A DNA stretch of 64,000 bases from Ruegeria sp. TM1040. GTDB lineage: Bacteria > Pseudomonadota > Alphaproteobacteria > Rhodobacterales > Rhodobacteraceae. The stretch is taken from NCBI RefSeq assembly GCF_000014065.1, contig NC_008044.1:1139501-1203500 (forward strand), in the 5' to 3' direction. The notes under the pieces were generated by a model that saw only the letters and a program-made list of their open reading frames with translations, was not told where the DNA came from and searched no databases. This document shows positions 3,938 to 35,198 of this stretch, one piece after another. Position 1 is the first letter of the stretch; every line of letters starts with the position of its first letter. The position numbers were made by a program, and so were the translations under genes.

Positions 3938-3940
3938 CCC

Positions 3941-4600: not shown

Positions 4601-4613
4601 GGAGGCTAAGCCT

Positions 4614-6124: not shown

Positions 6125-6558
6125 GCCGCGACATCAACACAGAGGCGGTGGCCCTCGCGCGGCTCTGGCTGGGCACGCCCTATCGCCATCAGGGGGCCAC
6201 GCGGGGGGCGGGCTGCGATTGTCTCGGGCTGATCCGGGGCCTCTGGCGCAGCCTTTATGGCAGCGAACCCGAACCCGTGCCGCCCTATACCCGCGACTGG
6301 GCCGAACGCGGCAGCGAGGAACGCCTGTGGCGGGCAGCACTGCGGCACATGCAGCCCGCCCAAGACCCCATGCCCGGGCAGGTCATCCTGTTTCGCATGC
6401 GCGCAGGGGCGGTGGCCAAACATCTTGGCCTCCAGAGCGAGAGCGCGCGCTTTATCCACGCCTACAGCGGCCATGGCGTTGTCGAAAGCGCGCTGACGCC
6501 CGCGTGGCAACGCCGCATCGTGGCGCGCTTTGCCTTTCCCGACCCCAACGATCTCTGA
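6121..6558 (+). CDS. GTA cell-wall peptidase (g14), NlpC/P60 family
   Basis: 145 aa. NlpC/P60-type cysteine peptidase carried at the tail tip; digests peptidoglycan of the recipient so DNA can enter the periplasm. The catalytic Cys lies in 'GAGCDCLGLIRGLWR' (about residues 30-44) and the His in 'GAVAKHLGLQSE' (about residue 101). Start ATG overlaps the g13 stop. A family like this has no signal peptide, since the protein is packaged into particles. Length fits RcGTA gp14. Confidence 0.9.
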   Translation: MSRDINTEAVALARLWLGTPYRHQGATRGAGCDCLGLIRGLWRSLYGSEPEPVPPYTRDWAERGSEERLWRAALRHMQPAQDPMPGQVILFRMRAGAVAKHLGLQSESARFIHAYSGHGVVESALTPAWQRRIVARFAFPDPNDL

Positions 6559-6570
6559 GGAGGACATTTC

Positions 6571-16685: not shown

Positions 16686-16703
16686 TAGTTTAACACTAAA
16701 CTA
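16686..16703 (-). promoter_or_regulatory. Putative operator of the pdh operon (shared with lpdA)
   Basis: TAGTTTA-ACAC-TAAACTA, a perfect 7-bp inverted repeat with a 4-nt spacer, 27 nt upstream of the pdhA start. The same arms with the same spacing occur at 35181-35198 in front of lpdA. Position close to the start codon suggests repressor binding at or near the transcription start. The regulator is not identified. Confidence 0.7.
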
Positions 16704-17088
16704 TCTCATAGTGTATTTTGCTCCAGCATGCGAGGGATAATCTCGAAGCAGTTGAAATCCGGCTTGGATTTGCTGTTTTTTGCACCAAAACAGGCCCCAC
16801 ATCTGGCAGTCTTCTGGCCCCAGCGAGCGCCGCTTGCTGTGCGACGGAACCGCTGTGACAACTGCGGCAGGGTGGCGGGTTGCGCGCACAAAATCAAGCC
16901 CGGGCGCCGCGCAGCGGATCTGCGCAACGTCCCCGCGATGAGACATCCGCCCAACGGGAGGCTTGCGGGCGCTCTGGGAGTGAAAACAAGAGAGATCTGG
17001 GGGCTCTATGTGGGACCTGAGCGCGCAAGCATCAAACCGCGGTCAATATCAAGGGGGGCACAGGCGATTGGGCGTCAAGCCGCGTGGA
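16704..17088. other. Intergenic region between pdhA and ftsB
   Basis: About 385 nt between two minus-strand genes, holding the upstream promoter region of pdhA. Short open frames on both strands here (for example 16701-16946 minus, 16728-17099 plus) lack family resemblance, convincing ribosome sites or codon structure. No hairpin terminator for ftsB was recognised. Confidence 0.5.
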
Positions 17089-17388
17089 TCAGTCGATGAT
17101 GATCTCATCGGCGCGCGCCATGCCCAGCACCGAGCGCGCTTGTTCATCCAGAAGATCCAGATCGAGATAGTCATCCGACAGGCGCCGGGTGAGGTTTTCC
17201 ATCCGCGCGATTTCCACTTCGAGCCGCTCCAGATCCTTGGCCAGCCCGTCGGCCTCGGCCTGCAGCTCCACTCGCCGGAACAGGCCAAAATCCCCCTGCA
17301 CGGCGGCAAAGGTGAAATAGGCGCTCAAAAGGAACGCTGCGGCAAAGAACAGCAAGGTGCCCAGAGAAGGCGTGGATTTTCGCGTCAC
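17089..17388 (-). CDS. ftsB: Cell division protein FtsB/DivIC family
   Basis: 99 aa. Small bitopic septum-formation protein of the FtsB/DivIC family, which with FtsL and FtsQ activates septal peptidoglycan synthesis. Cytoplasmic basic N-terminus 'MTRKSTPSLG', one transmembrane helix at about 9-31 ('TLLFFAAAFLLSAYFTFAAV'), then a periplasmic coiled coil at about 40-68 ('LQAEADGLAKDLERLEVEIARME'). The C-terminus contains 'LDEQARSVLGMARADEIII', the conserved 'ER.LG...DE' pattern. Location just upstream of pdhA is usual in alphaproteobacteria. Confidence 0.9.
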   Translation of the reverse strand: MTRKSTPSLGTLLFFAAAFLLSAYFTFAAVQGDFGLFRRVELQAEADGLAKDLERLEVEIARMENLTRRLSDDYLDLDLLDEQARSVLGMARADEIIID

Positions 17389-17619
17389 GTTGATGGTGCC
17401 TGTAAAGATCTTGCTCGATTGCGCCGGTTTGTCCGGCGTCTGAGAGGGTTATGGCACAGGCACCGGCGCCTGTGAATCCCCAAAAGGGTTAACACTGCAT
17501 GGTGTCGCATAGGCGGAACAGGTGGGCGAGGCTCTTGTCTTCTGGAAAGGAGACGTGCGACGTCAGAATGCCTCTGGCGGTCCAAAATGACGCAGTTTGG
17601 CGCTGGAACGCGTGTTTCT

Positions 17620-17943
17620 CTAGCGAACGATACGTTTAAGTCTCGACCGAACGATCTCCACCAGTTCTGGTTGCATGCATTCACAGGTGTCCGGAATGTC
17701 GAGGCAGACAATCCGCTTGCCCTTGAGGTGAGACCCCATGTGACGCTTGAGCCGAGAAAGCTGGGACTTTTCCATCACCGCAATCGTGTCGGCCCACAGC
17801 AAGTGATCGCGACTGACGCGTTCATCGGAGTCGGCACTTAGTCCCGCAAAATCAGTTGGCTGACCGAGTTGCTCCGCCGCAATGGTCGCAGCAGTTGGAC
17901 TTCTTTTTCGACCCTTGCCGCAGATAAACAGTAGATTTCCCAT
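17620..17943 (-). CDS. Small protein-tyrosine-phosphatase-like protein
   Basis: 107 aa. Short single-domain protein of the low-molecular-weight phosphotyrosine phosphatase type. 'LLFICGKGRKRSPTAA' gives the C-x5-R phosphate loop (Cys8, Arg14) followed by Ser, and 'LDIPDTCECM' supplies the general-acid Asp region (Asp82/Asp85). Conserved 'RVSRDHLLWADTIAVMEKSQ' lies between. Start ATG 17943 begins directly before the catalytic strand as in this short family; the frame is open further upstream, to 18069. The gene lies in DNA more AT-rich than its surroundings, which suggests acquisition. Substrate unknown. Confidence 0.78.
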   Translation of the reverse strand: MGNLLFICGKGRKRSPTAATIAAEQLGQPTDFAGLSADSDERVSRDHLLWADTIAVMEKSQLSRLKRHMGSHLKGKRIVCLDIPDTCECMQPELVEIVRSRLKRIVR

Positions 17944-18114
17944 CGATGAAACATCACCCCAACATGTTTCAGTATTCAAGCATAACATGTGTTTTGCGTC
18001 TGCACGCTCGACCTTTGCCGGGGGTGTTCTATGCGTGACGATAGAGCGACGTGGCAGGCTATATGACATAGGCCGCGTTCGTTTTTAGGCCGACGCCCCC
18101 CTGTCAGGAGGGTT

Positions 18115-18149
18115 TCCTAAAAAACACCCGGCGCAGAGGATGCGCCGGG
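18115..18149 (-). terminator. Terminator of the chemotaxis receptor gene
   Basis: Perfect 9-bp stem CCCGGCGCA (18127-18135) / TGCGCCGGG (18141-18149), 5-nt loop. On the minus strand it is followed by TGTTTTTTAGG. It lies 25 nt after the receptor gene stop. Confidence 0.85.
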
Positions 18150-18173
18150 ATGTATCGGTAGATGCCTTGCGGA

Positions 18174-19946
18174 TCAGGCCGCGCGGGCGGGAGCTGCGGT
18201 GCTAGAGCTTGCCTGCCCACCGGTAAAGCCTTCTAGCAGGTTGGTGAGGCGGGAGGCCTGGGTGCGCATCTCATGGCTGGCGGAATAGGTTTCCTGCACC
18301 ATGGCGGCGTTTTCCTGCGTGGCCTTGTCGAGCTGCGCCACGCCGATGTTGATTTCCTGGATGCCGGCAGCCTGCTCGCTGGAGGAGCTGGCGATGGCGG
18401 AGACCATGCCAGAGACATTGGTGACGCTCTCGACGATCTGGGTCAGGGTTTCGGCGGTGGCCTGTACCAGCTGCTCTCCCTCTTCGACCTGGCTGGAGCT
18501 TTCCTGAACCAACTGCTTGATTTCACTTGCAGAATGGGCCGCTTTCATGGCCAGTCCGCGCACTTCGGAGGCCACCACCGCAAAGCCACGGCCGGCTTCC
18601 CCGGCCCGCGCGGCCTCGACGCCCGCGTTGAGCGCCAACAGACTGGTCTGAAAGGCGATATCGTCGATCGCGGTGATGATCTGGGAGATGCGGTTGGAAT
18701 ATTCCGCAATCGAGGCCATGGCGCGGCTCGCCTGCGCCATCACCTCGCCGCCCTGTTCGGCGCGGCGGCGGCCTTCCTCAACTTCGCGGTCGGCGGCCTT
18801 GGCCTGCGCGGCGCTGGATTGCACGGCGGTCGACATTTCTTCCAGCGCGGCAGCGCTTTCTTCCAGCGTGGCGGCCTGGGTCTCGGAGCGCTGCGACATC
18901 TGATCCGACATCCGTTCCATTTCGCGCGCGTTTTGTTCCACGACGGTGGAGCTTTGATTGAGCTGGGCCACCAGATCCGAAAGCGAGGAGGAGAGCGCGT
19001 TGAAATCCTCGCAGAGCGTGGCGTAACCGGGGCCGAGGTCTTCCCAGTCCTGCGCCACGATGTTCTGGTCGAGATCGCCGCTCTTGAGACCGCTCATGGA
19101 GGCACCGAGGACGCCAAATAGCTCGACCCGGCGCGCGTTTTCGGCGGCGTTCTGGCGGTCATGCGCGTCAGCCTCGGCGAGCTGAGTGCGCAAATCCTTG
19201 AGATTGCGGGCAATCTGACCGAGTTCGTCGCCGCGCTGAGTGCCGGAAATCTCTGCCACGTAGTCCTTCTTTGCCAGCGCCGCGATGCTCTGCGCTGCGT
19301 CAGACACTGGTTGGCTCAATTTGCGCCCAAAGACAAAGGCCACGGTCACCGCGACAAGCGCCGCTGCGACGCTGGTGGCGATCTGTATGATCTGGCAGAA
19401 CAAAATGAGGGAGTCGACCTCTGCGCGGACGGATTTGCTGGTGGCGGCAAGTTTGTCCTGAAGCGCATCCACCACATCGCGCACCTGTCCGGCGAGCGGG
19501 AACACCTTGTCAAAGACCACGCGCAGCTGCGCCTCGCCTTCGGTGCGCTCTACCTCCTGCAATGTTGCCTCAAGCTGATCCAGAAGCGGCTCGGTCGAGA
19601 CCAGCGCGTCGTAGGCCTGCATGTCCCGTGCGGCGATGATGGGGGTGGATTTGAAATTATCCTCTGCGACGGCAAGCTCGCTACGGATCTCTTCGATATT
19701 GGCGCGCAGGTCGCTCAGCCCCTCGGGCATGCCGACGGTATAGGACAAGAGATCGCCGATACCTTGTTCGATGTCTTCCTTGATGGCGTCGAAGCTTTTG
19801 CTTTGGGTGCTGACCGCGCGATAGTGATAGGTGGCCCCGGCAAGGCGTTGGTTTGCAAACCACGAAATCGCGGCGATGATCAGGATCATCGCGATAAAGA
19901 TTCCCGCAAAACCAAAGATTTGTTTGCGCAGCGAGAGATTCGTCAT
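18174..19946 (-). CDS. Methyl-accepting chemotaxis protein
   Basis: 590 aa. Transmembrane chemoreceptor. Membrane helix 1 at about 9-31 ('[21 protein letters not shown]') is followed by a helical-bundle periplasmic sensor of about 150 residues ('[19 protein letters not shown]'-like region) and membrane helix 2 ('[19 protein letters not shown]'). HAMP domain follows ('[22 protein letters not shown]'). The signalling hairpin is '[20 protein letters not shown]', flanked by long coiled coils with Glu/Gln methylation-type sites. Start ATG 19946 has AAGGGG upstream and places the first helix correctly. Ligand not predictable. No che genes adjacent. Confidence 0.92.
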
Positions 19947-20250
19947 CCGGGGGCCCCTTAATACAGATGGGCGCATAGGCGCGCGCATCGCAGAAAGCCT
20001 ACCGTAAACTGTGTAAAAATTCGGTTGTTGCCCCAGGGGAAAGACGCAATCCCGGGCCGCGCGCGGCACCCATAAAGATCAAATTGTAACAAAGTTGCCC
20101 CGCCGCAGGGATTCTGCAGCGGGGCGATGAAAGGCTTCATCTGGCTGGGCCGACAGGTCTGGCCGGGCTGGCCGAATTGACCGAGCTGGCCGGGGGCAGG
20201 GCGCGTCAGTTGGCCCCAGCCCTTGCGGCAGGGCGGGGCCGGGCGCAGGT
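19947..20250. other. Intergenic region between chemoreceptor and pgk
   Basis: 304 nt. It contains a hairpin 20097-20108 / 20114-20125 (12 bp, one mismatch) followed on the minus strand by a T-rich stretch, a likely pgk terminator. At 20160-20195 there is a four-unit 9-bp imperfect tandem repeat (TGGCCGGGC type). The stretch next to 19947 must hold the receptor promoter. No gene seen. Confidence 0.5.
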
Positions 20251-21441
20251 TCAGGTCTGCAGGGCAGCGACGCCGGGCAGGACCTTGCCCTCCATCCACT
20301 CAAGGAAGGCGCCCCCGGCGGTGGAGATGTAGCTAAAGGCCTCTGCCGCTCCGGCCTGATTGAGCGCAGCGACGGTGTCGCCTCCGCCCGCAACGGAAAT
20401 CAGCTGGCCGGCCTTGGTGAGTTCTGCCGCCTTTTGCGCCGCTGTATTGGTCGCAATATCAAAGGGCGCGATTTCAAAGGCACCAAGCGGGCCGTTCCAG
20501 ATCAGGGTCTTGCTCTCGGCAAAGACTGTGGAAATGGCCGCAACCGAGGCGGGGCCAGCATCCAGGATCATCGCATCCGCAGGGCAGGCGTCCGCGGGTA
20601 CGGTTTCATTGTCGGCGCCGGCCTTGAATTCGCGCGCGACCACCACGTCCGACGGCAGCAGGATGGTGCAGCCTGCCGCCTCGGCGCGGGCCATGATGTC
20701 CTTGGCGGTGCCTGTCATGTCATGTTCGCAAAGCGATTTGCCCACGTCGATGCCTTGGGCCGCAAGAAAGGTATTGGCCATGCCGCCGCCGATCACAAGC
20801 GTGTCTACCTTGGCCACCAGATTGCCCAGAAGGTCCAGTTTGGTCGAAACTTTGGCGCCGCCCACAACCGCAGTGACGGGGCGTTCAGGCGTGGCCAGAG
20901 AGCCTTCGAGCGCTTTCAGTTCTGCCTCCATCAGGCGGCCCGCGCAGGCAGGCAGCAGGCGCGCCAGCGCCTCGGTGGAGGCATGGGCGCGGTGGGCGGC
21001 AGAGAAGGCATCATTGCAGTAGATATCACCAAGCGCGGCCATCTCTTTGGCGAGATCGGCATCGTTTTGTTCTTCGCCGGGATAAAAGCGCGTGTTCTCA
21101 AGGAGCAGGATCTGCCCGGGCGCGAGCGCGTCAACGGCGCCTTTTGCAGCGGGGCCTCGGCAATCGGCCACAAACATCACCGGCGCGCCAAAGGCGGCCT
21201 CCAGCGCGGGGACCAGCGGCTGCAACGACATCTCGGGCACCACCTTGCCCTTCGGGCGGCCAAAATGCGCCAGCAGCACAGGTTTTGCACCCTTGGAGAG
21301 CAGGTCGGAAATCGTCGGCACGAGGCGGCGGATGCGGGTGTCATCGGTGACTTTGCCGTCTTCCATCGGGACGTTGATATCCACGCGGGTCAAAACGCTT
21401 TTGCCTTGCAGATCCATGTCGTCGAGTGTCTTCCAGCCCAT
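20251..21441 (-). CDS. pgk: Phosphoglycerate kinase
   Basis: 396 aa. Converts 1,3-bisphosphoglycerate and ADP to 3-phosphoglycerate and ATP in glycolysis/gluconeogenesis. '[14 protein letters not shown]' is the family signature; '[10 protein letters not shown]', '[15 protein letters not shown]', '[14 protein letters not shown]' and the nucleotide-binding '[11 protein letters not shown]' are all present. Start ATG 21441 matches family length; the frame continues upstream without resemblance. Monocistronic, divergent from the cyclophilin pair. Confidence 0.96.
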
Positions 21442-21820
21442 GTCCGGCTCCTCTGTCAGTGCGACGCGCCCGCGGAGTGCAGGCGCAGAAAATTCAATGT
21501 CCTGCGCCTGTGTCCTGCGTTTCCGGGCGTCAGTCAATGGGCAGGCATCCCGATGTGGCTTTTGCGCGCGTCCTGCCGCCACAAGAGGCGCCCGTCACTG
21601 ATGCTCCTTACTGGGGTCCGTCATTGGAGCCGTCACTGGAGACTGCGCGGACGGAGTGCAAATCGGGACGACCGAGACGACCGGGGCGATGCGGCAGGTT
21701 TGCCGGGAACCCTGGGGGACGACTTCCTGCCGACGCAAGGGGATCGCTACATTGATCCCTTGGCAAGCGCGGGCATGGACTTTAGGTATTCCGGCAATAC
21801 GAATGTGACAGGAGGGCCTC
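21442..21820. other. Divergent intergenic region pgk / cyclophilins
   Basis: 379 nt containing promoters for pgk (minus) and ppiB (plus). No gene with family resemblance or proper start was found. The ribosome site for ppiB is ACAGGAGGGCCTC at its 3' end. No unambiguous -35/-10 pair or operator stands out. Confidence 0.5.
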
Positions 21821-22327
21821 ATGGCCGAGATCAAGGATCCCGAAAACACCATCATCATCGAGCTGAAAGATGGCAATGTGGTCATCGAACTGCTGCCGGA
21901 TGTGGCACCGATGCATTGCGACCGCATGAAAGAGCTCGCACGTGAAGGTCAGTATGACAACGTGGCCTTTCACCGGGTGATCGACGGCTTCATGGCGCAG
22001 ACCGGCGACGTGCAGCACGGCGATATGGAAGATGGCTTCAACCTCGGCCGCGCCGGCACCGGTGGCTCCGACAAGAAAGACCTGCCCGCGGAATTCTCTG
22101 GCGTGCCCCATGACCGTGGCACCCTGGGCGCGGCGCGGTCGCAGAACCCCAACTCCGCCAACTCGCAGTTCTTTATCAACTTCAAGGACAACCACTTCCT
22201 GAACCGCCAGTACACGGTCTATGGCCGCGTCATCGAGGGCATGGAGCATGTGGATGCGATCACCCGTGGCGAGCCGCCAGCAAAGCCTGATCGCATGATC
22301 TCCGTGAAGGTGGCCGCCGATGCTTAA
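21821..22327 (+). CDS. ppiB: Peptidyl-prolyl cis-trans isomerase, cytoplasmic cyclophilin
   Basis: 168 aa. Cyclophilin-type PPIase that speeds proline isomerisation in protein folding. No signal peptide. Active-site motifs 'VAFHRVIDGFMAQTGDV' (Arg/Phe/Gln) and 'NSANSQFFINFKDNHFLNRQYTVYGRV' are intact. ATG has AGGAGG upstream. It overlaps the next gene, a second cyclophilin, by 8 nt, so the two are co-translated; the close similarity of the pair points to tandem duplication followed by gain of an export signal. Confidence 0.95.
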   Translation: MAEIKDPENTIIIELKDGNVVIELLPDVAPMHCDRMKELAREGQYDNVAFHRVIDGFMAQTGDVQHGDMEDGFNLGRAGTGGSDKKDLPAEFSGVPHDRGTLGAARSQNPNSANSQFFINFKDNHFLNRQYTVYGRVIEGMEHVDAITRGEPPAKPDRMISVKVAADA

Positions 22328-22868
22328 GCGTCTGAGCGCACTGGCCCTTTTGGCGGCGTCGCCCGCTTTTGCCACCGGTCTGGAGATCCAGGTCGAGGGC
22401 GAGGCCAATGGCACCATCGTGATCGATCTCTTGGAAGACGTGGCGCCGAACCACGTCGAACAGATCGCTGCACTGGCCGCTGAGGGCCAGTATGATGGCG
22501 TGGTATTTCACCGCGTGATCCAGGGCTTTATGGCGCAGACCGGTGATGTGCAGAACGGTCGTCTCGGGTCCGACATGCGCTATGCTGGCACCGGCGGCTC
22601 GGACCGCCCGGATCTGGCCGCCGAGTTCTCTGACGTGCCGTTCGATCGCGGCGTCGTTGGCATGGCGCGCTCGCAGGATCCCGACAGCGCCAACTCGCAG
22701 TTCTTTATCATGTTTGATGAGGGCCACTTCCTGAACGGTCAATACACCGTTGTGGGCCGTGTCACCGAAGGCATGGAGATCGTCGATCAGATCAAACGCG
22801 GCCACCCGCGGTCTGGTGCAATCACCGGCAGGCCGGATGTGATGAGCAAGGTCACCGTCACCGAGTAA
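22320..22868 (+). CDS. ppiA: Peptidyl-prolyl cis-trans isomerase, exported cyclophilin
   Basis: 182 aa. Periplasmic counterpart of the preceding protein: Sec signal peptide at 1-18 ('MLKRLSALALLAASPAFA', cleavage after AFA), then a cyclophilin domain with 'VVFHRVIQGFMAQTGDVQNG' and 'NSANSQFFIMFDEGHFLNGQYTVVG'. It assists folding of exported proteins. Start overlaps the ppiB end by 8 nt. Very similar to PpiB throughout the catalytic domain. Confidence 0.95.
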   Translation: MLKRLSALALLAASPAFATGLEIQVEGEANGTIVIDLLEDVAPNHVEQIAALAAEGQYDGVVFHRVIQGFMAQTGDVQNGRLGSDMRYAGTGGSDRPDLAAEFSDVPFDRGVVGMARSQDPDSANSQFFIMFDEGHFLNGQYTVVGRVTEGMEIVDQIKRGHPRSGAITGRPDVMSKVTVTE

Positions 22869-22890
22869 GGGCGCGGGTCTGTTAAGATAG

Positions 22891-22934
22891 AGAGGGGCTC
22901 TGATACGAGATGTATCAGAGCCCCTCTTTTATTT
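22891..22934 (+). terminator. Terminator of the cyclophilin operon
   Basis: Perfect 16-bp stem (22891-22906 with 22912-22927), 5-nt loop, followed by TTTATTTAT. The arms start AGAGGGGCTCTG. It lies 22 nt after ppiA and is one of the strongest terminators in the window; A-rich flank on the other side is weak, so mainly plus-strand. Confidence 0.92.
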
Positions 22935-22959
22935 ATCTGGTCTGTTCTTTTAGGGGCGA

Positions 22960-23853
22960 TCAAGTGAAGAGGAAGAAATCTTCGCTCTGCAGATCCTCAA
23001 CCTCCCAGTCGCGCACAATAATAGTGGTTTGGGCATAGGCGATCCGGACGTCGTCGCCATCTTGGCTGAACGTCAGGCCACGCATGCCGCGCGCGCCATG
23101 CTGGATCTCGATGACATCATTGCCATTTCCGAAATCCCGGATCACGTTGGCTCCATCGCGGTGCTTGAAGACAAAGGTATCATCACCCGTGTTGCCGGTC
23201 AGACGATCCGTGCCACAGCCCGCGATCAGGGTGTCATGCCCGCTCCCGCCTTTGAGGATGTCCCGTCCAATGCCGCCATTGAGGTCGTCGTTCCCGCTGC
23301 CGCCGATCAGGATGTCGCGACCGGTCTGCCCATGGATTCGGTCCTGACCTGCTCCGCCCAAAAGGCGATCATGGCCACTGTAGCCGTTTACAATGTCATT
23401 GCCGCCTCCGCTCAGGACCCGGTCGTTGCCGGTGCCCGCGAAGACAAAATCATCGCCTGATCCGAGCTCTGCGACATCATTGCCGGAGGAGAGGTTGAGA
23501 TTGAGATCCACATTCAGGTCTGACACGAAATCGTCATCCCCGGCCATGTCGGTTTCAAGGACGTTCACGAGATCCCCGAAACTCTGGAACAAGAGCAAGT
23601 CCGTGATTGGGATCCAAACGTCAGATACAGAAATGATCTGATTGCCGTAATAGCTTACATCAATACCCGAGACCGAGGAGAGCGCGGCATTCCCATAGAT
23701 GAAAGAACCGTAAACTGTGAAGTTCTACCCCGACCCGACCACGGTAATTTGGTTGGATGTTGACGTTGTGATCTGTGGATTATCTTCAAACCGCCAAAAG
23801 TTGATGAAGCCGTACAGGGAGTAGTTTTCGAACGAAAATTCGATATTCGACAC
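22960..23853 (-). pseudogene. RTX-type calcium-binding protein gene interrupted by in-frame TAG
   Basis: The minus-strand frame runs from GTG at 23853 (AGGA 8 nt upstream) to the stop at 22960. It is open except for a TAG at 23727-23725, codon 43. Before it the frame reads 'MSNIEFSFENYSLYG...NQITVVGSG' and after it 'NFTVYGSFIYGNAALSSV...', one continuous beta-rich style. The C-terminal part has RTX nonapeptides ('GSGDDFVFAGTGNDRVLSGGGND', 'GGSGNDDLNGGIGRD') that bind calcium in secreted proteins. The 254 codons after TAG lack an obvious ATG until 'MAGDDDFV'; TTG 23598 is possible. No neighbouring type I secretion genes. More AT-rich than its surroundings. Confidence 0.6.
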
Positions 23854-23922
23854 CGCTAAAGTCCTAAATCTATTAAACGTTTCAGTCTGGTCAGGGGCGC
23901 TACGGTTAAGACATCGCCCACC

Positions 23923-23954
23923 AAAAAAAATCGGACCCCGATCCGGGATCCGAT
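23923..23954 (-). terminator. Terminator of the M23/bactofilin operon
   Basis: ATCGGACCCCG (23930-23940) / CGGGATCCGAT (23944-23954), 11-bp stem with one mismatch. On the minus strand it is followed by eight T residues. It lies 25 nt after the bactofilin stop. Confidence 0.88.
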
Positions 23955-23979
23955 CATATCTCTAAGCAAGTAGAAAGTT

Positions 23980-24501
23980 TTAGTCAACTTTTGCGGGTGC
24001 TGCCGCAGCGGGTGCCTTGGACGCCGCTTTGCCAGGGCTGAGCGGGTCATCCTGACGCTGCACGGAGCCCTCAAAGTGGGCGCCGGACTCGATCGCGATG
24101 GTCTTGTGGATGATGTCACCCTCGACGCGCGCGGTGGAGGTCAGGCGGACCTTCAGGCCACGCACACGGCCCACGATACGGCCGTTGATGACCACGTCAT
24201 CGGCGGTGATCTCACCCTTGATGGTGGCGCTTTCACCGATGGTCAGCAGATGCGCGCGGATGTCGCCTTCGACGGTGCCTTCGACCTGGATGTCACCGGT
24301 GGTTTTGACATTGCCGGTGATGTGCAGATCCGAGCTCAGCAGCGATGCCGGCGGCTTTGCCTTGGGCGCGGCGGGCTTGCTGTAGTCGCTGGCACCAGAG
24401 GATGCGCTGCTCGAAGAAGGCGCCGGGCTGGAGGCCGGGGTTGCCGTTGCGGTATCGGCTTGTTTCGGGCCGGGCTCGTTGATTTTGCTCTTAGAAAACA
24501 T
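23980..24501 (-). CDS. Bactofilin family cytoskeletal protein
   Basis: 173 aa. Bactofilins polymerise without nucleotide and scaffold local cell-wall synthesis. Low-complexity Ser/Pro/Ala N-terminus (about 1-55), then the bactofilin beta-helix at about 58-150 ('SDLHITGNVKTTGDIQVEGTVEGDI', 'ADDVVINGRIVG'), then an Ala/Lys/Pro tail. Start overlaps the M23 peptidase end by 11 nt. The pairing of a membrane-bound M23 peptidase with a bactofilin is a recurrent operon in proteobacteria and suggests the bactofilin positions the peptidase. Confidence 0.92.
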   Translation of the reverse strand: MFSKSKINEPGPKQADTATATPASSPAPSSSSASSGASDYSKPAAPKAKPPASLLSSDLHITGNVKTTGDIQVEGTVEGDIRAHLLTIGESATIKGEITADDVVINGRIVGRVRGLKVRLTSTARVEGDIIHKTIAIESGAHFEGSVQRQDDPLSPGKAASKAPAAAAPAKVD

Positions 24502-25822: not shown

Positions 25823-26049
25823 AGCCTGCTATCCTCATTCCACCCCTGTGAGGTTGCGCCTCTCCTGCTGTTGGGAGCTTGTGGGCAACCTACCTTGGCC
25901 GAATGGAATAGCCAGACTGTGGCCATTCAGCAACCCTGTTCCGCGACACCGGCTGATTTGGGGCGCAATTCCTTGGCCTTGGGCAAAAAACTGCCGATAT
26001 GAGCCAGTTTGGCATTGCGCCGGGCCTTCTTGCGCCGGGCCCGGCCAGT

Positions 26050-26892: not shown

Positions 26893-27221
26893 GGCGTCTT
26901 TGTCTTGAGGCGCGGGGTGCCGTGGGACGGGCAGGGGCGCGGGTGTGGGTAATCGTGATTTGCGATCGGGGTGGGCGATCTTTTGCAGGCGGGTATGCCG
27001 CGCATGGGGCAAGCCTGGCAAGTGAGGAGTGGCTTTTGTGCGACGCGCGGGCTCTTCGGTGCGGTCGTCTCGTGGCGTCTGGCCCGCAGCGTTACCGGTG
27101 GAATGTTGTCGCTCGGGTCACGCGGTGTATGGCGGCGAAACTGAGCGAGGCGCCATTGTTATTACCGCTCGGGTCAGCGCGAACTTTCCGAGGGCTTGCG
27201 CTTTGCCATGCAAATCGCCGG

Positions 27222-27254
27222 GGGCGGGGCCGCGCCTTTGGCGCGGCCCCGCCC
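27222..27254. repeat. GC-rich 15-bp perfect hairpin
   Basis: Arms 27222-27236 and 27240-27254 pair without mismatch around TTT. Followed at 27258-27277 by CCAAC and GTTGG arms. Similar order of motifs (GCCCAAC hairpin plus long GC hairpin) is found at 59984-60033, suggesting a dispersed element. Confidence 0.55.
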
Positions 27255-27354
27255 GGCCCAACGCTTTTCGGGTTGGCTTTGCCACATCTTTGAAAAGGGG
27301 CGGGAGGGCCTCCGTCCGAGCGAAAGGGGCGAGCGTGACCCCGCTAAGCCCCTC

Positions 27355-27406
27355 TTCTGAGCCCAGAGCCTGAGCTCCTCTCCTGAGCCTCCGGCCTGAG
27401 GCCGCG
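27355..27406. repeat. 13-bp imperfect tandem repeat, four units
   Basis: CTGAG occurs at 27357, 27370, 27383 and 27396, exactly 13 nt apart, in units like GCCTGAGCTCCTC and TCCTGAGCCTCCG. The block sits 10-62 nt downstream of the bcp stop codon on the minus strand. Confidence 0.7.
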
Positions 27407-27416
27407 CCGTCGGTCC

Positions 27417-27878
27417 TCAGAGCTCTTTGACGGCTTCCAGAACCTCTTCGACATGGCCGGGCACTTTGACCTTGCGCCAGATCCGGGCGATCTTTCCGTC
27501 GCGGTCGATCACGAAGGTCGAGCGCTCGATCCCCATGCTTTTGCGGCCATACATGTTCTTTTCCACCCAGACGCCATAGTCCTCGCACATGGTGCTTTCG
27601 GCATCCGACAACAGCGGCACGGTGAGCCCATGTTTGGCGACAAATTTGTCGTGTTTGGCCACGGTGTCGCGCGAGATGCCATAGACAGCGGCGCCCGCAT
27701 CGGCAAAGGCTTGCAAGTGTTCGGAAAATCCAATGGATTCCTTGGTGCAACCCGGCGTATCATCGCGGGGATAGAAAAACAAAACAACGACCTGACCCTT
27801 CAGGTCCGAAAGGGAAACTTCACCGCCGCCATCGCGCGGCAGAGTGAACGCGGGGGCGAGGTCAGAGGGTTCGAGCAT
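27417..27878 (-). CDS. bcp: Thioredoxin-dependent peroxiredoxin, Bcp/PrxQ type
   Basis: 153 aa. Reduces hydrogen peroxide and organic hydroperoxides using thioredoxin. 'FFYPRDDTPGCTKESIGFSEH' contains the peroxidatic Cys. The usual PrxQ resolving Cys five residues later is replaced (sequence CTKESI), so it is a 1-Cys or atypical form. Start ATG 27878 ('MLEPSDLAPAFTLP') fits the family. Divergent from the AsmA-like gene with only 61 nt between starts, so promoters overlap. Confidence 0.93.
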   Translation of the reverse strand: MLEPSDLAPAFTLPRDGGGEVSLSDLKGQVVVLFFYPRDDTPGCTKESIGFSEHLQAFADAGAAVYGISRDTVAKHDKFVAKHGLTVPLLSDAESTMCEDYGVWVEKNMYGRKSMGIERSTFVIDRDGKIARIWRKVKVPGHVEEVLEAVKEL

Positions 27879-27939
27879 GTGTTGGGTCTCCTCAAGGGTT
27901 CGCGCAAGTTTAATTGTACCTGCGGGCCATACATAGATC

Positions 27940-30900
27940 ATGTCGGACAAAGGAAAACCATATATCGTGGCCGCGCCGCCAGAGCCTGCGTCCGAAGCGG
28001 GCGGCAACCGGGTGCAGGAGACTGGCGCGGGCGCGTCTGACATGGGCCAGAACACGGCACAGCCCCGGCGCAACCGGTGGCGCCGCCGCCTTTGGAAAAG
28101 CACGGTCTGGACCCTGGCGCTTTTGGCGGGGTTGACGGTTGCGGCCTGGGTGCTGCTCGACAAGCGGCTGGATGCGCCCGAGTGGCTGCGCAGCGAGGCC
28201 GAGCGGCGCATCGAGCGCCATTTGGGCGGGCTTCAGATTGAGTTCGGTGAGATCGAGCTGGTGGTGCGCCGGGGCTGGCGGCCGCGTCTTTCGCTGCGCG
28301 ATGTGACGCTGTTTTATCCCGACGGCAGCCCGGCTGTGCATCTGGAGGACGCGCAGGCGGCCTTGGCGATGCGGCCCTTGCTGCGCGGGCAACTCCGGCC
28401 CAAGCTGATTTCGTTGTCGGGGCTGTTTGCGACCCTGGAAACGGGCAGCGACGGGGCGGTGGCGCTCAGTTTTTCGGATGGGGCGGCGCCGTTGCGGCAA
28501 GCGCGCAACCTGCCGCAACTCATCGAGGCCTGGGACCGTCAGCTGGAACTGCCGATCCTGTCGGCGGTGACGCAGGTGGAAACGCAGGCGGTGACGCTCA
28601 ATTATATCGACCGTCGGATCGACCGCGCCTGGACGCTGGATGGCGGCGCGGTTCTGTTGTCGCGCAAGGGCGATCGTGTCAGCATCGATGCGGGTTTCTC
28701 GGTGCTCAGCGGGCGCGAGTATGCCAGCACCGTGGAGGCCAACTACCAATCCGACATCGGGGATACCGCAGCGGAATTTGCGGTGGTGGTGGATCAGGTG
28801 CCCAGCAGTGACATCGCCAGCCAGAGCCCGGCCTTTGGCTGGCTGGATGTGCTGCGTGCACCCATTTCAGGCGCGCTGCGTGGTGCGGTCGACAGCGAGG
28901 GCGCGTTGCGTCCGCTCAATGCGAGCCTGCAGGTGGGGCGCGGTGTGATCCAGCCCAATGACCAGCTCAAACCCATCCCCCTGCAATCGGCCGAGAGCTA
29001 TTTCACCTTTGATCCTGCGCGTCAGGAGCTGGCCTTTTCGCGCCTCTCGGTGGAGAGCGGCTGGATCAGTGGCCAGATGGAAGGCCGCGCCGAGCTGGTG
29101 GGCGTGCGCGACGGGCGGCTGACGCAGCTTGTGGGCCAGCTGAGCTTTTCCGATCTCAAGCTCAACCCGCTGCGCCTTTATCCTGAACCTCTGGCGTTCT
29201 CCGGGGTGCAGGCCGATTTCCTTATGGAGCTGCAACCTTTCCGGCTGCGCCTTGGCGAGGCGCTGGTGCAGCAGGGCGAGACCGACGTGCTGTTGCGTGG
29301 TGATGTGCGCGCGGGCGAAACAGGCTGGCACTATGATCTCCAAGGCGCGGCGGATCGGCTTGATGTGGCGGTGGTCAAGGAAATGTGGCCGCCCTCCGCC
29401 CCGCCAAAGCCGCGGGCGTGGTTTACAGAGAACGTGCTCGCCGGAGACATCCACGACGTGCAGTTTGCCCTGCGTGGGCGCGATGGGCAAAAGCCCTTTG
29501 TGGCGCTGGATCTTGGATTTCTGAACGGCGAGGTGCGGTTCAACAAGTTCTATCCGCCGCTGACCCAAGCGGCGGGGCAGCTCAGTATCTATGGCCGGCG
29601 CCTGGTGGTGACGGCCACCGAGGGCGGCGTGGACGCGGATCTAGGCGGGCGGATGGATGTGGCAGGGACTTCCTTCATCATCCCGGATACGTCGCTCAAG
29701 GGCGACAACAGCCTTGGGATCCTGCGCGCCGAACTCGCGGGGCCCGCGCTGGCGGCGCTGTCGCTTCTGGACCGCGAGCCCCTGTCGATCCTGAGCAAGG
29801 TGAACCTTCCGGTGGCGCTTGGCACGGGTGAGGTCGACCTGAGCGCAACCGCTGCGATGCCGCTCAAGAAAGGGGTCAACGTCGCGGAGATTGACTATCA
29901 CTACGCTGGCCAAATCAAGCAGGCCCGCAGTGAGGTCCTGGTGCCGGGCTATCCGATCGAGTCCGAGGCGTTGCAGATCTCGGGGGACAATCACCATGTC
30001 ACGGTGGCGGGGCCCGGCCTTTTTGCCGGTGTTCCAATCGAGGCGCGCTGGCGTCAGGGTATCCGCCCCGGAAATGCACCCGATGGCACCATCGAGGCCG
30101 AGATCGAACTCTCGCCGCGCACCTTGGCGGCGCTCAACATCGGGCTGCCCGAAGGCATGGTGCGCGGGCAGGGGCAGGCGCAGGTCGAGGTGGTTCTGCC
30201 CCCCGGCGAGCCGGTCGCGCTCTCGGTGCAAAGCGATCTACGCGGCATTGGCCTGTCGCTGCCCGAGGTAGGCTGGCGCAAGGCCGAAAACAGCAGCGGC
30301 ACACTCTCGTTTGAAACTGTACTGAGGGACACGCCATCGATCGAGAGTTTTACCCTCGAGGCCAATGGCTTGCGCGCGGCCGGGCGGATCACGGTAAAGC
30401 CGGATGGCGGGCTGGATCAAGCGCAGTTCTCGGCCGTGTCGCTTGGAAACTGGCTGTCGGGGGCGGTGACATTGCGCGGGCGGGGCGACGCCACCCCTGC
30501 GCTGTCGATGACCGGGGGCTGGATCGACCTTGAGCGCGCGCCCTTTGACAGCCGCGCGGAGGGCGGCTCTGGTGGCGGTGGCAGCAATACGCCGATCTCG
30601 CTGGCCATTGATCGGCTGCAAGTCACCAAGGAACTGGCGTTGACGCGCTTTCAGGGGCGGTTTGACACGCTTGGCGGGTTCAACGGGGCCTTCAGCGGCA
30701 ACCTCAACACGCTCACCCCGGTCGAAGGGGTGGTGGTGCCGCAGTCCGGGGGGCTGGCGATGCGGCTGCGCTCGGCGGATGCGGGCGGGGTCTTTCGTGC
30801 GGCGCAGGTGATGCAGAACGGCTATGGCGGCAGTTTCGAGATGACCATGCTGCCGGCTTCAGATCCCGGCGAATATGTCGGCCAGCTCCGCGTGAAGAAC

Positions 30901-31407
30901 ATCCGTGTAAAACGCACCCCCGCCATTGCGGCGCTGATCAACGCGCTCAGTCTTGTGGGGCTCTTTGATGAGCTGTCGGGCCAGGGCATCCTCTTTACCG
31001 CGATGGAGGCCGATTTCCGCCTTGGGTCGCGCTATCTCACGCTGGTGAAGTCCTCGGCGGTGGGGCCGTCGATGGGGATTTCGCTCGATGGGGTCTATGA
31101 CCTCAGCACCAGCCAGATGAACATGCGCGGGGTGCTTTCGCCGATCTATCTGGTCAACGCCATTGGCAGCGTGCTGACGCGCAAGGGCGAGGGGTTGTTT
31201 GGATTCTCATTCACCCTGAAGGGCAAGGCCGAGGACCCGGTGGTGTCGGTGAACCCGCTTTCGGGCATCGCGCCGGGGTTCCTGCGCGAGATCTTTCGCG
31301 GCGAGGCGCCACGGGCGCCCGGAGCGGCCCCCTTGCCGGAGGACGAGCAGAACCAGACCGCCGAAGAGCTGCGCGAAGAACGCGAGCGCCGCCGCGAGGC
31401 CCGCTAG
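27940..31407 (+). CDS. Large AsmA/YhdP-like (DUF3971) envelope protein
   Basis: 1,155 aa. AsmA-like superfamily protein with an N-terminal basic segment ('PRRNRWRRRLWKS'), one membrane helix at about 55-74 ('TVWTLALLAGLTVAAWVLL') and a very long periplasmic beta-rich body. DUF3971 lies in the middle ('FSDLKLNPLRLYPEPLAFSGVQADFLMEL' region) and the C-terminal AsmA-like segment ends 'LSPIYLVNAIGSVLTRKGEGLFGFSFTLKG'. Such proteins form groove-like bridges that move phospholipids between the two membranes. A second start at 28042 ('MGQNTAQPRRNRW') is possible. Confidence 0.85.
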   Translation: MSDKGKPYIVAAPPEPASEAGGNRVQETGAGASDMGQNTAQPRRNRWRRRLWKSTVWTLALLAGLTVAAWVLLDKRLDAPEWLRSEAERRIERHLGGLQIEFGEIELVVRRGWRPRLSLRDVTLFYPDGSPAVHLEDAQAALAMRPLLRGQLRPKLISLSGLFATLETGSDGAVALSFSDGAAPLRQARNLPQLIEAWDRQLELPILSAVTQVETQAVTLNYIDRRIDRAWTLDGGAVLLSRKGDRVSIDAGFSVLSGREYASTVEANYQSDIGDTAAEFAVVVDQVPSSDIASQSPAFGWLDVLRAPISGALRGAVDSEGALRPLNASLQVGRGVIQPNDQLKPIPLQSAESYFTFDPARQELAFSRLSVESGWISGQMEGRAELVGVRDGRLTQLVGQLSFSDLKLNPLRLYPEPLAFSGVQADFLMELQPFRLRLGEALVQQGETDVLLRGDVRAGETGWHYDLQGAADRLDVAVVKEMWPPSAPPKPRAWFTENVLAGDIHDVQFALRGRDGQKPFVALDLGFLNGEVRFNKFYPPLTQAAGQLSIYGRRLVVTATEGGVDADLGGRMDVAGTSFIIPDTSLKGDNSLGILRAELAGPALAALSLLDREPLSILSKVNLPVALGTGEVDLSATAAMPLKKGVNVAEIDYHYAGQIKQARSEVLVPGYPIESEALQISGDNHHVTVAGPGLFAGVPIEARWRQGIRPGNAPDGTIEAEIELSPRTLAALNIGLPEGMVRGQGQAQVEVVLPPGEPVALSVQSDLRGIGLSLPEVGWRKAENSSGTLSFETVLRDTPSIESFTLEANGLRAAGRITVKPDGGLDQAQFSAVSLGNWLSGAVTLRGRGDATPALSMTGGWIDLERAPFDSRAEGGSGGGGSNTPISLAIDRLQVTKELALTRFQGRFDTLGGFNGAFSGNLNTLTPVEGVVVPQSGGLAMRLRSADAGGVFRAAQVMQNGYGGSFEMTMLPASDPGEYVGQLRVKNIRVKRTPAIAALINALSLVGLFDELSGQGILFTAMEADFRLGSRYLTLVKSSAVGPSMGISLDGVYDLSTSQMNMRGVLSPIYLVNAIGSVLTRKGEGLFGFSFTLKGKAEDPVVSVNPLSGIAPGFLREIFRGEAPRAPGAAPLPEDEQNQTAEELREERERRREAR

Positions 31408-31620
31408 GCAGGCTTTGCAGGGCAAAGATCGCGTCACGCGCGCCGATGCCCCATGGACTTTTGCGCAGGCGCGCAGTATCGCGCGGCCCAAGATGAAATC
31501 GGCGGTGCAAGGGCCTGCGCGGACGGTGCAACAGGTGGCACGACGAACGGCAATCCGCCCGGCAAGACAGACGACATCCCAAGCGGCGACGCAGTTGGTG
31601 AAACAGACGGTGAGCAGACC

Positions 31621-32682
31621 ATGACAGAGTCCTTGAAACTGGGCGATTTTGATTTTGACCTGCCAGAAGAGCTGATCGCGACACGCCCTGCCGTGCCGCG
31701 CTCTTCGGCGCGTCTTCTGGTGGCAGAGCAGGACCGGATTTCGGACGGGCGCGTCACCGACCTTTTGGACTGGCTGGCACCGGGGGACCGGCTGGTGCTC
31801 AATGACACCCGCGTGATCCCTGCGCGTCTCAGCGGTCAGCGCCACCGCAACTCAGCGCAGGGACCGGTCTCGGCACGCATCGAGGTAACGCTTCTGGAGC
31901 CGCAGGCCGATGGCAGCTGGGCGGGTCTCCTGAAGCCCCTGAAAAAAATCAAGATCGGCGAGACCCTGCGGTTCTCCGATGCGCTTTCGGCCGAGCTTGT
32001 CGATGTGGTCGATGGTCAGGGACGGCTTCGGTTCAACCTCGCGGGCGATGATTTTGACGCGGCGCTGGCAGAGGCGGGCGCGATGCCCCTGCCGCCCTAT
32101 ATCGCCGCCAAACGCCCCGCCGACGAGCAGGACAAGACTGACTATCAAACCGTCTGGGCGCGCAATTCCGGCGCGGTGGCGGCGCCCACCGCGAGCCTTC
32201 ATTTTGACGAGCCGCTCCTGAAGGCGCTGTCCGAGAAGGGGGTGACCTTTACCTATGTGACCCTGCATGTGGGCGCGGGCACCTTCCTGCCCGTGAAGGT
32301 CGAGGATGTGACCACCCACAAGATGCACGCCGAATGGGGCCAGGTGACGCCGGAGGCCGCCGCCGAGATTGCAGCCACCAAGGCCGCAGGCAATCGGGTG
32401 ATCCCCGTGGGCACCACGGCGCTGCGCCTGATCGAAAGCGCGGCACGCGAAAGCGGCGCCATCACACCCTGGGAAGGCGAGACGGACATTTTTATCTATC
32501 CGGGTTTCGAGTTCCGGGTGGCTGATGCGTTGATGACGAATTTTCATCTGCCAAAATCGACCCTGATGATGCTGGTCTCTGCCCTGATGGGGCAGGATCG
32601 CATCCGCGCGATCTATGCGCATGCGGTAAAGGAGCGGTATCGCTTCTTTTCCTACGGGGATGCCTCGCTGCTCATTCCCTGA
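31621..32682 (+). CDS. queA: S-adenosylmethionine:tRNA ribosyltransferase-isomerase
   Basis: 353 aa. Transfers the ribosyl part of SAM to 7-aminomethyl-7-deazaguanine in tRNA, making epoxyqueuosine. Signatures are '[24 protein letters not shown]', '[15 protein letters not shown]', '[28 protein letters not shown]' and '[17 protein letters not shown]'. ATG 31621 fits the family; the frame is open upstream to 31453 but without resemblance. 213 nt after the AsmA-like gene. Confidence 0.95.
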
Positions 32683-32952
32683 TCGCGGCCCGTTGACGGC
32701 GCTGTGTCGGGGACCGGCAAGGGGTTGACCCATGTTGTCACTGTGCGAAAGGTCGCCCTAAGACCGCCCCGAGTCGGAATTGCCGGGTCAGGGCACCCTG
32801 AATGAGAGCATAACCAGACCCTTGGGGTGTGCTGGGGCTGATGGCCCTTTGCCCCTCTGACAGCCCACCGCGGCCTCGGGCCGGTTTTACTGAAAATACT
32901 TCCCGTATGCCGCTGTGCTGCGGGCTCCTCACGGACCGAAGGAGAACACGTC

Positions 32953-34227
32953 ATGCTGCAAGTTCTGTCGAGCGCCTGGGCGCTTTTGCTGGGCATTGGC
33001 CTTTTGATGTTGGGCAACGGCCTGCAAGGCACGCTGCTGGGTGTGCGCGGTGGCATCGAGGGCTATTCCGCGCTCACCATGTCGCTGGTGATGTCCACCT
33101 ATTTTGTGGGCTTGCTCCTGGGGTCCTGGGTGGCGCCGGGGATGATCCGGCGTGTGGGCCATGTGCGGGTCTTTGCGGCGCTGGCCTCGCTGATTTCGGC
33201 GGTGATGGTGATCTATCCCGCGCTGCCCAACCCGATTGTCTGGATGCTGGGCCGTCTGGTCGTGGGGTTCTGCTTTTCTGGCGTGTATGTCACCGCCGAA
33301 AGCTGGCTCAACAATGCGGCTGACAACCAGAACCGAGGCAAGGCGCTCTCTCTCTATATGGTCGTGATGACACTGGGGCTGGTGGCCGCACAGGGTTTCA
33401 TCCTGATCGGGGACCCGGCGGGCTATCTGCCGTTTGTGATCGCCTCCATCGCGGTTTCGATCTCCTTCGCCCCGATTTTGCTGTCGATTTCGCCGACCCC
33501 CGCCTTTGATACGGCCAAGCGGATGACGCTTCGCGAATTGATGCATGCCTCGCCCCTTGGGTGTGTGGGGATGTTCCTCATTGGCGGCGTGTTCTCGGCG
33601 CAGTTTGGTATGTCTGCGGTCTATGCCACCGAGGCTGGGATGGAGCTGCATCAGGTTTCGCTCTTTGCGGCGAGCTTCTATGTCGGTGCGCTCTTTATGC
33701 AGTTCCCGCTGGGGCTGCTGTCCGACCGGATGGATCGACGGGTGCTGATCATGATCGTGGCAGGGGTCGCCGGGGTGACCTCGGTGCTGGCGATGCTGCT
33801 TGGGGGCACGTTCAGCCTGCTTCTGCTGGCCGCCTTTGTGATCGGCGGGCTGATCAACCCGCTCTATTCCTTGCTCCTGGCCCACACCAATGACTTTCTC
33901 GATCACGACGATATGGCCTCTGCCTCGGGCGGGCTGATCTTTATCAACGGGCTTGGCGCCTGTAGCGGGCCGGTCATCATCGGCTGGCTGATGTCGGACG
34001 CGATGTTCGGACCCAACGGGTTCTTCCTCTTCATGGCGATATTGCTGGGCGTGTTGGTTCTTTATGCCGGGTATCGCGCAACGCAGCGTGCGACCATTCC
34101 AGTCGAAGAGACCGGTGTCATGCCCGCCATGAGCCCGACCGCGACCTCGGTCGCGGTAGAGGTGGCGCAGGAATACGCCATCGAAACCGAGCTCGAAGAG
34201 CAAGACAGCGCCACAACCACGGGCTGA
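32953..34227 (+). CDS. Major facilitator superfamily transporter (YcaD-like)
   Basis: 424 aa, about twelve membrane helices. First helices are 'LSSAWALLLGIGLLMLGNGLQG' and 'MSLVMSTYFVGLLLGSWVAPGMIRRVGHVRVF', the latter containing the loop 2-3 motif. The 'SWLNNAADNQNRGKALSLYMVVMTLG' segment is typical of YcaD/CsbX-like members of unknown substrate. The C-terminal tail is acidic and cytoplasmic ('EYAIETELEEQDSATTTG'). GGAGA lies before ATG. Monocistronic with its own terminator. Confidence 0.88.
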   Translation: MLQVLSSAWALLLGIGLLMLGNGLQGTLLGVRGGIEGYSALTMSLVMSTYFVGLLLGSWVAPGMIRRVGHVRVFAALASLISAVMVIYPALPNPIVWMLGRLVVGFCFSGVYVTAESWLNNAADNQNRGKALSLYMVVMTLGLVAAQGFILIGDPAGYLPFVIASIAVSISFAPILLSISPTPAFDTAKRMTLRELMHASPLGCVGMFLIGGVFSAQFGMSAVYATEAGMELHQVSLFAASFYVGALFMQFPLGLLSDRMDRRVLIMIVAGVAGVTSVLAMLLGGTFSLLLLAAFVIGGLINPLYSLLLAHTNDFLDHDDMASASGGLIFINGLGACSGPVIIGWLMSDAMFGPNGFFLFMAILLGVLVLYAGYRATQRATIPVEETGVMPAMSPTATSVAVEVAQEYAIETELEEQDSATTTG

Positions 34228-34250
34228 CGGCAATAACCTGCTGAAAAATT

Positions 34251-34289
34251 GGCCATCTCTTCACAAAAGTGACGGAGGTGGCCTTTTTT
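34251..34289 (+). terminator. Terminator of the MFS gene
   Basis: GGCCATCTC (34251-34259) pairs with GAGGTGGCC (34275-34283, one wobble); inner arms TCAC/GTGA extend the stem around AAAA. Followed by six T residues. Confidence 0.88.
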
Positions 34290-34376
34290 GTAACGTAACG
34301 TCACTTGTGCTTGGGGGGTGAATCAGGCTTTTGATGGGTGTGTGGAAAACGTTTTACAGCCGGTGGAGAGAAACCA

Positions 34377-34955
34377 ATGGCAGCCCCTGAAGAGATCCTG
34401 AAATTCTGGCTCGATGAGGTCGGAGAATCAGGGTGGTACCGTCAAGATGATGCGTTGGATGCTGAAATCCGCAAGCGGTTCGAGCAGGCCTGGATCAACG
34501 CCTGCGAAGGCAGCTACTCGCTCTGGCTCACCTATCCCAGCGGCACCTTGGCGTATATCATCCTCACCGATCAGTTCCCGCGCAACATGTTCCGTGGTCA
34601 GGGCAAAGCCTTTGAATCAGACCATATCGCGCTGGCGGTGGCCAAGGCTGCGGTGGATCGCAAATGGGATCTCAAGATCAACGAACCCGCGCGGCAATTC
34701 TTTTACCTGCCTATGATGCACTCCGAGAGCCTCTGTGATCAGGAACGCTGCGTGCGGCTGATCCACGAACGGCTCGACAAGACGGGCGCGCAGAACCTCC
34801 TGCATGCGCGCGCGCACCGTGAGGTGATCCGTCTCTTTGGCCGCTTCCCCTATCGCAATGATGCGCTCGCGCGTCACAGCACCGCCCCCGAACGTGACTA
34901 TGTGAGCGCGGGCGGCTATGGCTCTACCGTGCGAGAGCTGCAGGCCTACGCCTGA
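34377..34955 (+). CDS. DUF924 family protein
   Basis: 192 aa, cytoplasmic, TPR-like helical family of unknown function. Typical segments are 'ILKFWLDEVGESGWYRQDDALDAEIRKRFE', 'ALAYIILTDQFPRNMFR'-like 'GTLAYIILTDQFPRNMFRGQ', 'ARQFFYLPMMHSE' and 'FGRFPYRNDAL'. ATG 34377 is preceded by GGAGAGAAACCA, better than the in-frame upstream start at 34338. Own terminator downstream. Confidence 0.88.
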   Translation: MAAPEEILKFWLDEVGESGWYRQDDALDAEIRKRFEQAWINACEGSYSLWLTYPSGTLAYIILTDQFPRNMFRGQGKAFESDHIALAVAKAAVDRKWDLKINEPARQFFYLPMMHSESLCDQERCVRLIHERLDKTGAQNLLHARAHREVIRLFGRFPYRNDALARHSTAPERDYVSAGGYGSTVRELQAYA

Positions 34956-34976
34956 CAGGCACCTGACTAAGTGACC

Positions 34977-35010
34977 AAGGCCCTGCCGATTGCCACGGCG
35001 GGGCCTTTTT
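34977..35010 (+). terminator. Terminator of the DUF924 gene
   Basis: AAGGCCCTGCCG (34977-34988) pairs with CGGCGGGGCCTT (34996-35007, one wobble), followed by TTTTT. Confidence 0.85.
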
Positions 35011-35180
35011 CATGTGGCGCGCGGATCTGAGACACGCGCAAGACGTTGCCACGCGCGCGGAAAGGATGGGGTTTTTGGTTGAACCTGTAGGCTTGCTTGT
35101 TAGGGTCAGAGGGTCTTAGCCGCCGCCACAGCAGGGGCAGGGCGGCGCGCCCGCTTCGACAGTTGCGGCGTGTGAGAAAT

Positions 35181-35198
35181 TAGTTTAACGGTAAACTA
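35181..35198 (+). promoter_or_regulatory. Putative operator of lpdA (shared with the pdh operon)
   Basis: TAGTTTA-ACGG-TAAACTA, identical arms and spacing to the site at 16686-16703, here 31 nt upstream of the lpdA start. Recurrence of a 14-base specific pattern in front of the two transcription units that make one enzyme complex argues for a dedicated regulator. Confidence 0.7.

Follow-up and report, generated by a model that had tools for sequence, protein, structure and literature searches.

The pyruvate dehydrogenase complex of E. coli is under the local control of PdhR, a regulator of the GntR/FadR type. For Rhodobacteraceae, which are abundant marine bacteria, no dedicated pyruvate dehydrogenase regulator has been described as far as the literature was searched, and no description of a MarR-family regulator of pdh in this family was found in that literature, with subscription papers mostly outside reach. 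In R. sphaeroides, a computational network published in 2015 predicts that the LacI-family protein RSP_1663 (CceR) acts at pdh and malic enzyme, with the inverted repeat DGTT-N6-8-AACH as its motif (PMC4344238). CceR is reported as both a repressor and an activator in a further paper (PMC11323563). In this study, we analyzed a stretch of 64,000 nucleotides (nt) of Ruegeria sp. TM1040 (the window; C3:1139501-1203500 in genome G000, which comprises 4.15 Mb in three contigs), where the palindrome TAGTTTA-N4-TAAACTA stands before pdhA and before lpdA. A preliminary description had put forward the hypothesis that it is the site of an undescribed pyruvate dehydrogenase repressor. What stands of this proposal is a shared operator with a specific candidate regulator; the regulon also includes the malic enzyme gene maeB, and a compatible motif had already been predicted for RSP_1663.

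On the sequence evidence, the palindrome is the conserved operator of a three-target regulon at the pyruvate node (pdhA, lpdA, and maeB). The system would share with PdhR the local control of the pyruvate dehydrogenase complex; it differs in protein family and in operator, as the E. coli PdhR operator is not like the present site, and here lpdA and maeB are separate units. Its likeness to the predicted CceR regulon, as set out in PMC4344238, lies in the pdh and malic enzyme targets and in a compatible motif. That regulon is assigned to a LacI protein, whereas here the palindrome, with its N8 spacing, tracks a MarR gene and is present in genomes without a CceR-like gene. The sites, the targets, their conservation, and the association with MarR are computed results; binding, repression, and an effector are what we infer from them, and we consider it highly probable that the palindrome serves as the operator of a MarR-family repressor, here the product of C3:3072985-3073425.

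Operator copies and their targets in Ruegeria sp. TM1040

Both copies in the window are exact and lie where they had been reported: TAGTTTA-ACAC-TAAACTA at 16686..16703, 27 nt upstream of pdhA (ATG at 16658, minus strand), and TAGTTTA-ACGG-TAAACTA at 35181..35198, 31 nt upstream of lpdA (ATG at 35230). Neither site is assigned a strand, and homologous sites occur upstream of pdhA family-wide. With up to three mismatches allowed, the window contains just these two copies (0.06 expected; two were reached in 0 of 100 shuffles). The earlier inspection by eye, which saw no third copy, thus holds for the window; a whole-genome scan added one further perfect copy, at C3:1680812-1680829 beyond the window, which precedes maeB by 21 nt. 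The exact motif has three sites in 4.15 Mb and is not frequent at unrelated loci. The looser consensus TNGTTYARCGYTRAACNA adds one match at up to one mismatch, overlapping the end of an open reading frame of 305 amino acids. At up to two mismatches, it gives six matches, one fewer than the reversed control (seven); the weak matches are thus background, and the three sites alone stand out. A chance repeat was ruled out by the window shuffles, the rarity in the genome, and the conservation in the family, where control patterns are nearly absent. A one-mismatch copy of the palindrome at C2:316700-316717 precedes a LacI-family gene within a stretch devoted to sugar transport, with other palindromes (AAAGCGCTTT) nearby; this copy may be a chance occurrence.

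The gene pdhA (15645..16658, minus strand), first in its regulated unit, encodes pyruvate dehydrogenase E1 alpha (TIGR03182, 516 bits; cut-off 394), and lpdA (35230..36624, plus strand) encodes dihydrolipoyl dehydrogenase (TIGR01350, 567 bits; cut-off 409). Both products thus score above their NCBIfam cut-offs; the two units had been described as encoding the parts of one enzyme complex. The maeB product, 759 amino acids long, is an NADP-malic enzyme that carries a phosphotransacetylase-like domain at its C terminus; it scores 1004 bits against the NCBIfam malic-enzyme model, below the cut-off of 1178. The next gene after pdhA on the same strand is probable pdhB (14251..15627), followed by probable pdhC, encoding E2 (12899..14239), each with an N-terminal lipoyl-like segment. 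Both are described from the gene call and the N-terminus only, and their names are our assumption, guided by position.

Promoter elements were inferred from base conservation. Ahead of the site, 73 pdhA promoters show only partial base conservation (T at −30 in 68%, G at −28 in 63%, C at −27 in 59%, T at −7 in 70%, and A at −6 in 66%), compatible with a putative TTGC −35 element separated by 17 bp from a TA..AG −10 element that immediately precedes the operator; a T at −12 (70%) makes another register possible. At lpdA, 19 of 21 promoters have a TTG that begins 18 bp ahead of the site, so that the presumed −10 element falls within the operator. In either arrangement, a protein on the operator would be able to obstruct RNA polymerase. 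An operator over the inferred −10/start region suggests repression, and the repressor-like position near the start codon that had been noted is borne out by a site that overlaps the inferred −10 element in lpdA and abuts it in pdhA.

Conservation of the site and co-occurrence with a MarR gene

We surveyed a panel of 198 Rhodobacteraceae genomes, one per genus. The exact motif was found in 92 of them, at 155 sites, and matches to a reversed-pattern control in three. Among 98 distinct exact sites whose surroundings were read, 94 precede one of the three targets (42 pdhA, 35 maeB, and 17 lpdA). The remaining four (L022, L031, L052, and L053), with none of these genes downstream, belong to genomes G090, G028, G172, and G033, all of 1.9–2.6 Mb. 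Each of 23 motif-bearing genomes has two to four sites within one mismatch of TAGTTTARYRYTAAACTA, with no control matches. We took 30 complete genomes that do not contain the exact motif, of which 27 have a close PdhA; in 26 of the 27, a site within two mismatches of TNGTTYARCGYTRAACNA lies in the 300 nt examined upstream of pdhA, a use of the looser consensus that is not independent, as it was derived from the same pdhA-upstream sequences. The lone exception is G167, with a best match of three mismatches (TCGGTTTACGCTCAACTA). The site is therefore kept upstream of pdhA in relatives. The motif is rare in the genome and conserved in the family, so neither of two objections that had been foreseen, frequency elsewhere and lack of conservation, applies. 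Besides its maeB site, G117 has a one-mismatch copy 2.8 kb off (the two lie at L117:4623-4640 and L117:7427-7444), followed after 224 nt by a gene whose product looks like adenosine deaminase on visual inspection; this copy possibly marks an extra target in that genome.

A match to the candidate MarR protein (expectation value, E, at most 1e-9) is present in 173 of the 198 genomes; five of the 25 MarR-less genomes were identified by subtraction. The exact motif occurs in 90 of the 173 with MarR and in 2 of the 25 without (Fisher P = 2e-5), and the latter two genomes are 74–77% complete. The contrast is sharper for a pdhA site with up to two mismatches in genomes at least 94% complete, where 60 of 60 with MarR have the site vs 0 of 8 without (P = 1e-10). 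Since 34 of these 60 had been chosen for having the exact motif, we also compared the genomes not so chosen, with 26 of 26 vs 0 of 8 (P = 5.5e-8). With the motif of the preliminary description at up to three mismatches, the counts are 23 of 26 (exceptions G002, G023, and G101) vs 0 of 8. Six further MarR-bearing genomes, 79–93% complete, all have the site, giving 66 of 66 without a completeness limit on the MarR-bearing group. On the MarR-less side, 24 genomes were searched for PdhA: eight had no match, and two more were excluded, G162 for having a distant paralogue only and G085 because its upstream end is missing. Adding G167 gives 15 MarR-less genomes, of which seven are 71–93% complete and are treated apart. 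In a PdhA tree of 74 genomes, with G167 set by hand to "no site" and the completeness limit applied to MarR-less genomes only, site and MarR change together seven times. Seven MarR-less genomes at least 95% complete (G017, G047, G054, G066, G071, G094, and G102) lack a PdhA match at E 1e-70, pointing to a joint loss of this type of pyruvate dehydrogenase and the regulator.

The linkage extends beyond the family. A consensus scan of 240 Alphaproteobacteria genomes gave matches in seven, one from the family and six from outside, and five of these six have the site in front of an Acg-type flavin mononucleotide (FMN) nitroreductase gene, with a MarR-family gene after it. These neighbours were recognized by sequence pattern; the family model was applied to the G340 protein only, which scores above the NCBIfam NF047509 cut-off. 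Searching 385 genomes of the class with the MarR protein returned loci in 33 genomes. We read 25 loci from outside the family, with three weaker matches (G249, G297, and G360) lying outside this set, and 23 of the 25 adjoin an Acg-type nitroreductase gene. A site with up to two mismatches is present at 17 of the 25, or at 12 of 20 when the five motif-found genomes are omitted. At 15 of the 17 site-bearing loci, which lie among L327-L348 and L350, there are two tandem sites 20–24 bp apart, mostly before the nitroreductase gene. Four of these non-family MarR proteins were aligned and are 38–42% identical to the TM1040 protein. The nitroreductase-marR operon outside the family is apparently self-regulated. 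It shares the palindrome, usually in tandem, with the system described here, and differs in its targets, which are pyruvate genes in the family. One family genome, G008, has an apparent site-nitroreductase-marR order, its middle gene being judged by the N-terminus only.

The candidate regulator

The candidate gene, C3:3072985-3073425, lies outside the window and encodes a protein of 146 amino acids, P0004. It overlaps the end of a gene we take to encode a nitrilase-like protein, downstream of presumed comF- and glutaredoxin-like genes and beside a presumed ubiG-like gene. Ruegeria pomeroyi also carries an orthologue, at locus L298. P0004 matches the Pfam models PF12802 (MarR_2, 39.4 bits; cut-off 27) and PF01047 (MarR, 30.7 bits; cut-off 24.6). 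None of the nine NCBIfam MarR subgroups listed for it (Rv0880, BagL/FevM, HpaR, BilQ, MarR, Saro_0803, FabT, SlyA, and OhrR) exceeds its cut-off, the best reaching 27.6 bits against a cut-off of 220, and no GntR model is among its matches (Pfam E at most 0.001, NCBIfam E at most 0.01). The predicted structure has a MarR fold, with a mean predicted local distance difference test (pLDDT) score of 95.4, and a structure search placed it closest to MarR-family structures, DNA complexes included. The model shares its winged-helix fold with the DNA complexes of MftR (8ylg), E. coli MarR (5h3r), and ST1710 (3gfi). P0004 differs from the solved MarR structures in sequence (22–28% identity in the matches), in its proposed central-carbon targets, and in having no cysteine, which makes an OhrR-type redox switch through cysteine unlikely.

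In the MarR fold, the recognition helix and the wing contact DNA. Across 30 aligned members of family and non-family origin, T64, A67, T69, N70, and T71 in the presumed recognition helix and D86, D89, R91, and K93 in the presumed wing are invariant, which agrees with the unchanged operator. We noticed no MarR gene beside pdhA or lpdA by eye in the gene calls of the window, where no family search was made. An autoregulated regulator gene within the family was considered and rejected, as none is among the exact sites read; at L205, one two-mismatch match to the site lies inside the marR gene itself.

Rival regulators and proposed mechanism

If the LacI-family protein CceR bound the site, pyruvate dehydrogenase and malic enzyme would be tied to a global switch between glycolysis and gluconeogenesis. 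The centre of the site is often CG, which LacI operators also carry. Because of this centre and of the prediction in PMC4344238, which covers pdh and malic enzyme and whose N8 form is fitted by the present GTT-N8-AAC, LacI proteins were examined first. TM1040 encodes six of them, and the P0003 group is present in 171 of the 198 family genomes, with seven of the 27 genomes lacking it identified by subtraction. The best family matches of P0003 are GntR/IdnR, and we take it to be CceR-like. Its gene and the pdhA site are correlated: among the 68 genomes at least 94% complete, the site is present in 56 of the 59 that have the gene and in 4 of the 9 that do not. The gene is absent from five of the eight MarR-less, site-less genomes. 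However, seven genomes have exact sites but not this gene (G019, G033, G044, G090, G136, G172, and G196): G044, with three exact sites, is 99% complete, G090 and G136 are 97%, G019 and G172 are 91%, and the other two are 64–74%. Conversely, G048, G109, and G170 are near-complete and carry the CceR-like gene, with neither a pdhA site nor MarR. Gene and pdhA site are discordant in 7 of 68 genomes for the CceR-like gene and in 0 of 68 for MarR; against the exact motif, P is 0.02 for the former and 2e-5 for MarR. Among 20 genomes scanned for LacI proteins, the sole LacI protein of G136 and G172 differs from the CceR-like sole LacI protein of G016 and G169, and CceR would leave the sites before nitroreductase-marR operons unexplained. 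On co-occurrence, that is, the seven site-bearing genomes without it and the three near-complete genomes with it and no site, we set CceR aside as the main regulator and regard its binding here as very unlikely. Our profiling of regulators covered LacI proteins and this MarR group. That some other regulator binds the site and just happens to accompany the MarR gene is most improbable given the physical linkage of marR and site in several further families of Alphaproteobacteria, as found from motif and protein searches alike. The MarR protein might also act from the site by activating transcription or by antagonizing CceR, which we judge unlikely: activators rarely bind over the −10/start region, and the site lies over that inferred region in lpdA (TTG at −18, 19 of 21) and after the presumed −10 element in pdhA. 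This positional argument is weakened by promoter elements that are inferred and, in pdhA, just partly conserved; the direction of control is also not readable from sequence, and CceR is reported to act both ways (PMC11323563).

Several observations weigh against a MarR-family repressor at these sites. The marR gene is not adjacent to its proposed targets in TM1040, and among 31 MarR loci scanned in the family, only G008 has a site before marR; outside the family, 8 of the 25 loci have no site. No clear −35 element was found in 38 maeB sites, the pdhA site of G101 is unusually far upstream, and MarR proteins can also activate. Three MarR matches (G083, G127, and G147) are weak, with E between 4e-11 and 3e-10, and could represent paralogues. 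At up to three mismatches to the looser consensus, the counts become 60 of 60 vs 1 of 8, as MarR-less G167 is then site-bearing. The less complete MarR-less genomes (71–93%) have a pdhA site in six of seven cases, which we attribute, as a conjecture, to missing sequence. Among the eight more complete ones, three have a diverged PdhA (75–77% identity) and G170 one at 59%, and the CceR-like gene is missing along with MarR in five. Only two of the seven joint changes in the PdhA tree lie on well-supported branches (sign test P = 0.5), so phylogeny alone gives no significant test.

With a MarR-family repressor as the preferred reading, a dimer would occupy the 18-bp site in the pdhABC, lpdA, and maeB promoters, covering the −10/start region and preventing transcription initiation. 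A small molecule tied to the pyruvate/acetyl-CoA node would release it, with a joint rise in malic enzyme and the pyruvate dehydrogenase complex as the result. The regulator and its operator appear to have persisted through a change of target, from a nitroreductase-marR operon elsewhere to pyruvate genes in the family. A regulon takeover in the family ancestor, in which the MarR protein of a nitroreductase operon was recruited to the pyruvate/acetyl-CoA node with its operator nearly unchanged, so that one central metabolite would set pyruvate dehydrogenase and malic enzyme, seems to us evenly poised between right and wrong.

The known kind to which this system belongs is a MarR repressor with a small regulon; this protein and its targets appear to be new. 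The outcome is a single testable gene with a defined 18-bp operator and three targets, and it looks like a clean example of a constant regulator and operator with changed target genes. It also suggests that part of the published CceR regulon prediction may belong to another protein. Elsewhere in the window, positions 233-10491 hold a run of same-strand genes, which we take to resemble a phage or gene-transfer-agent tail cluster.

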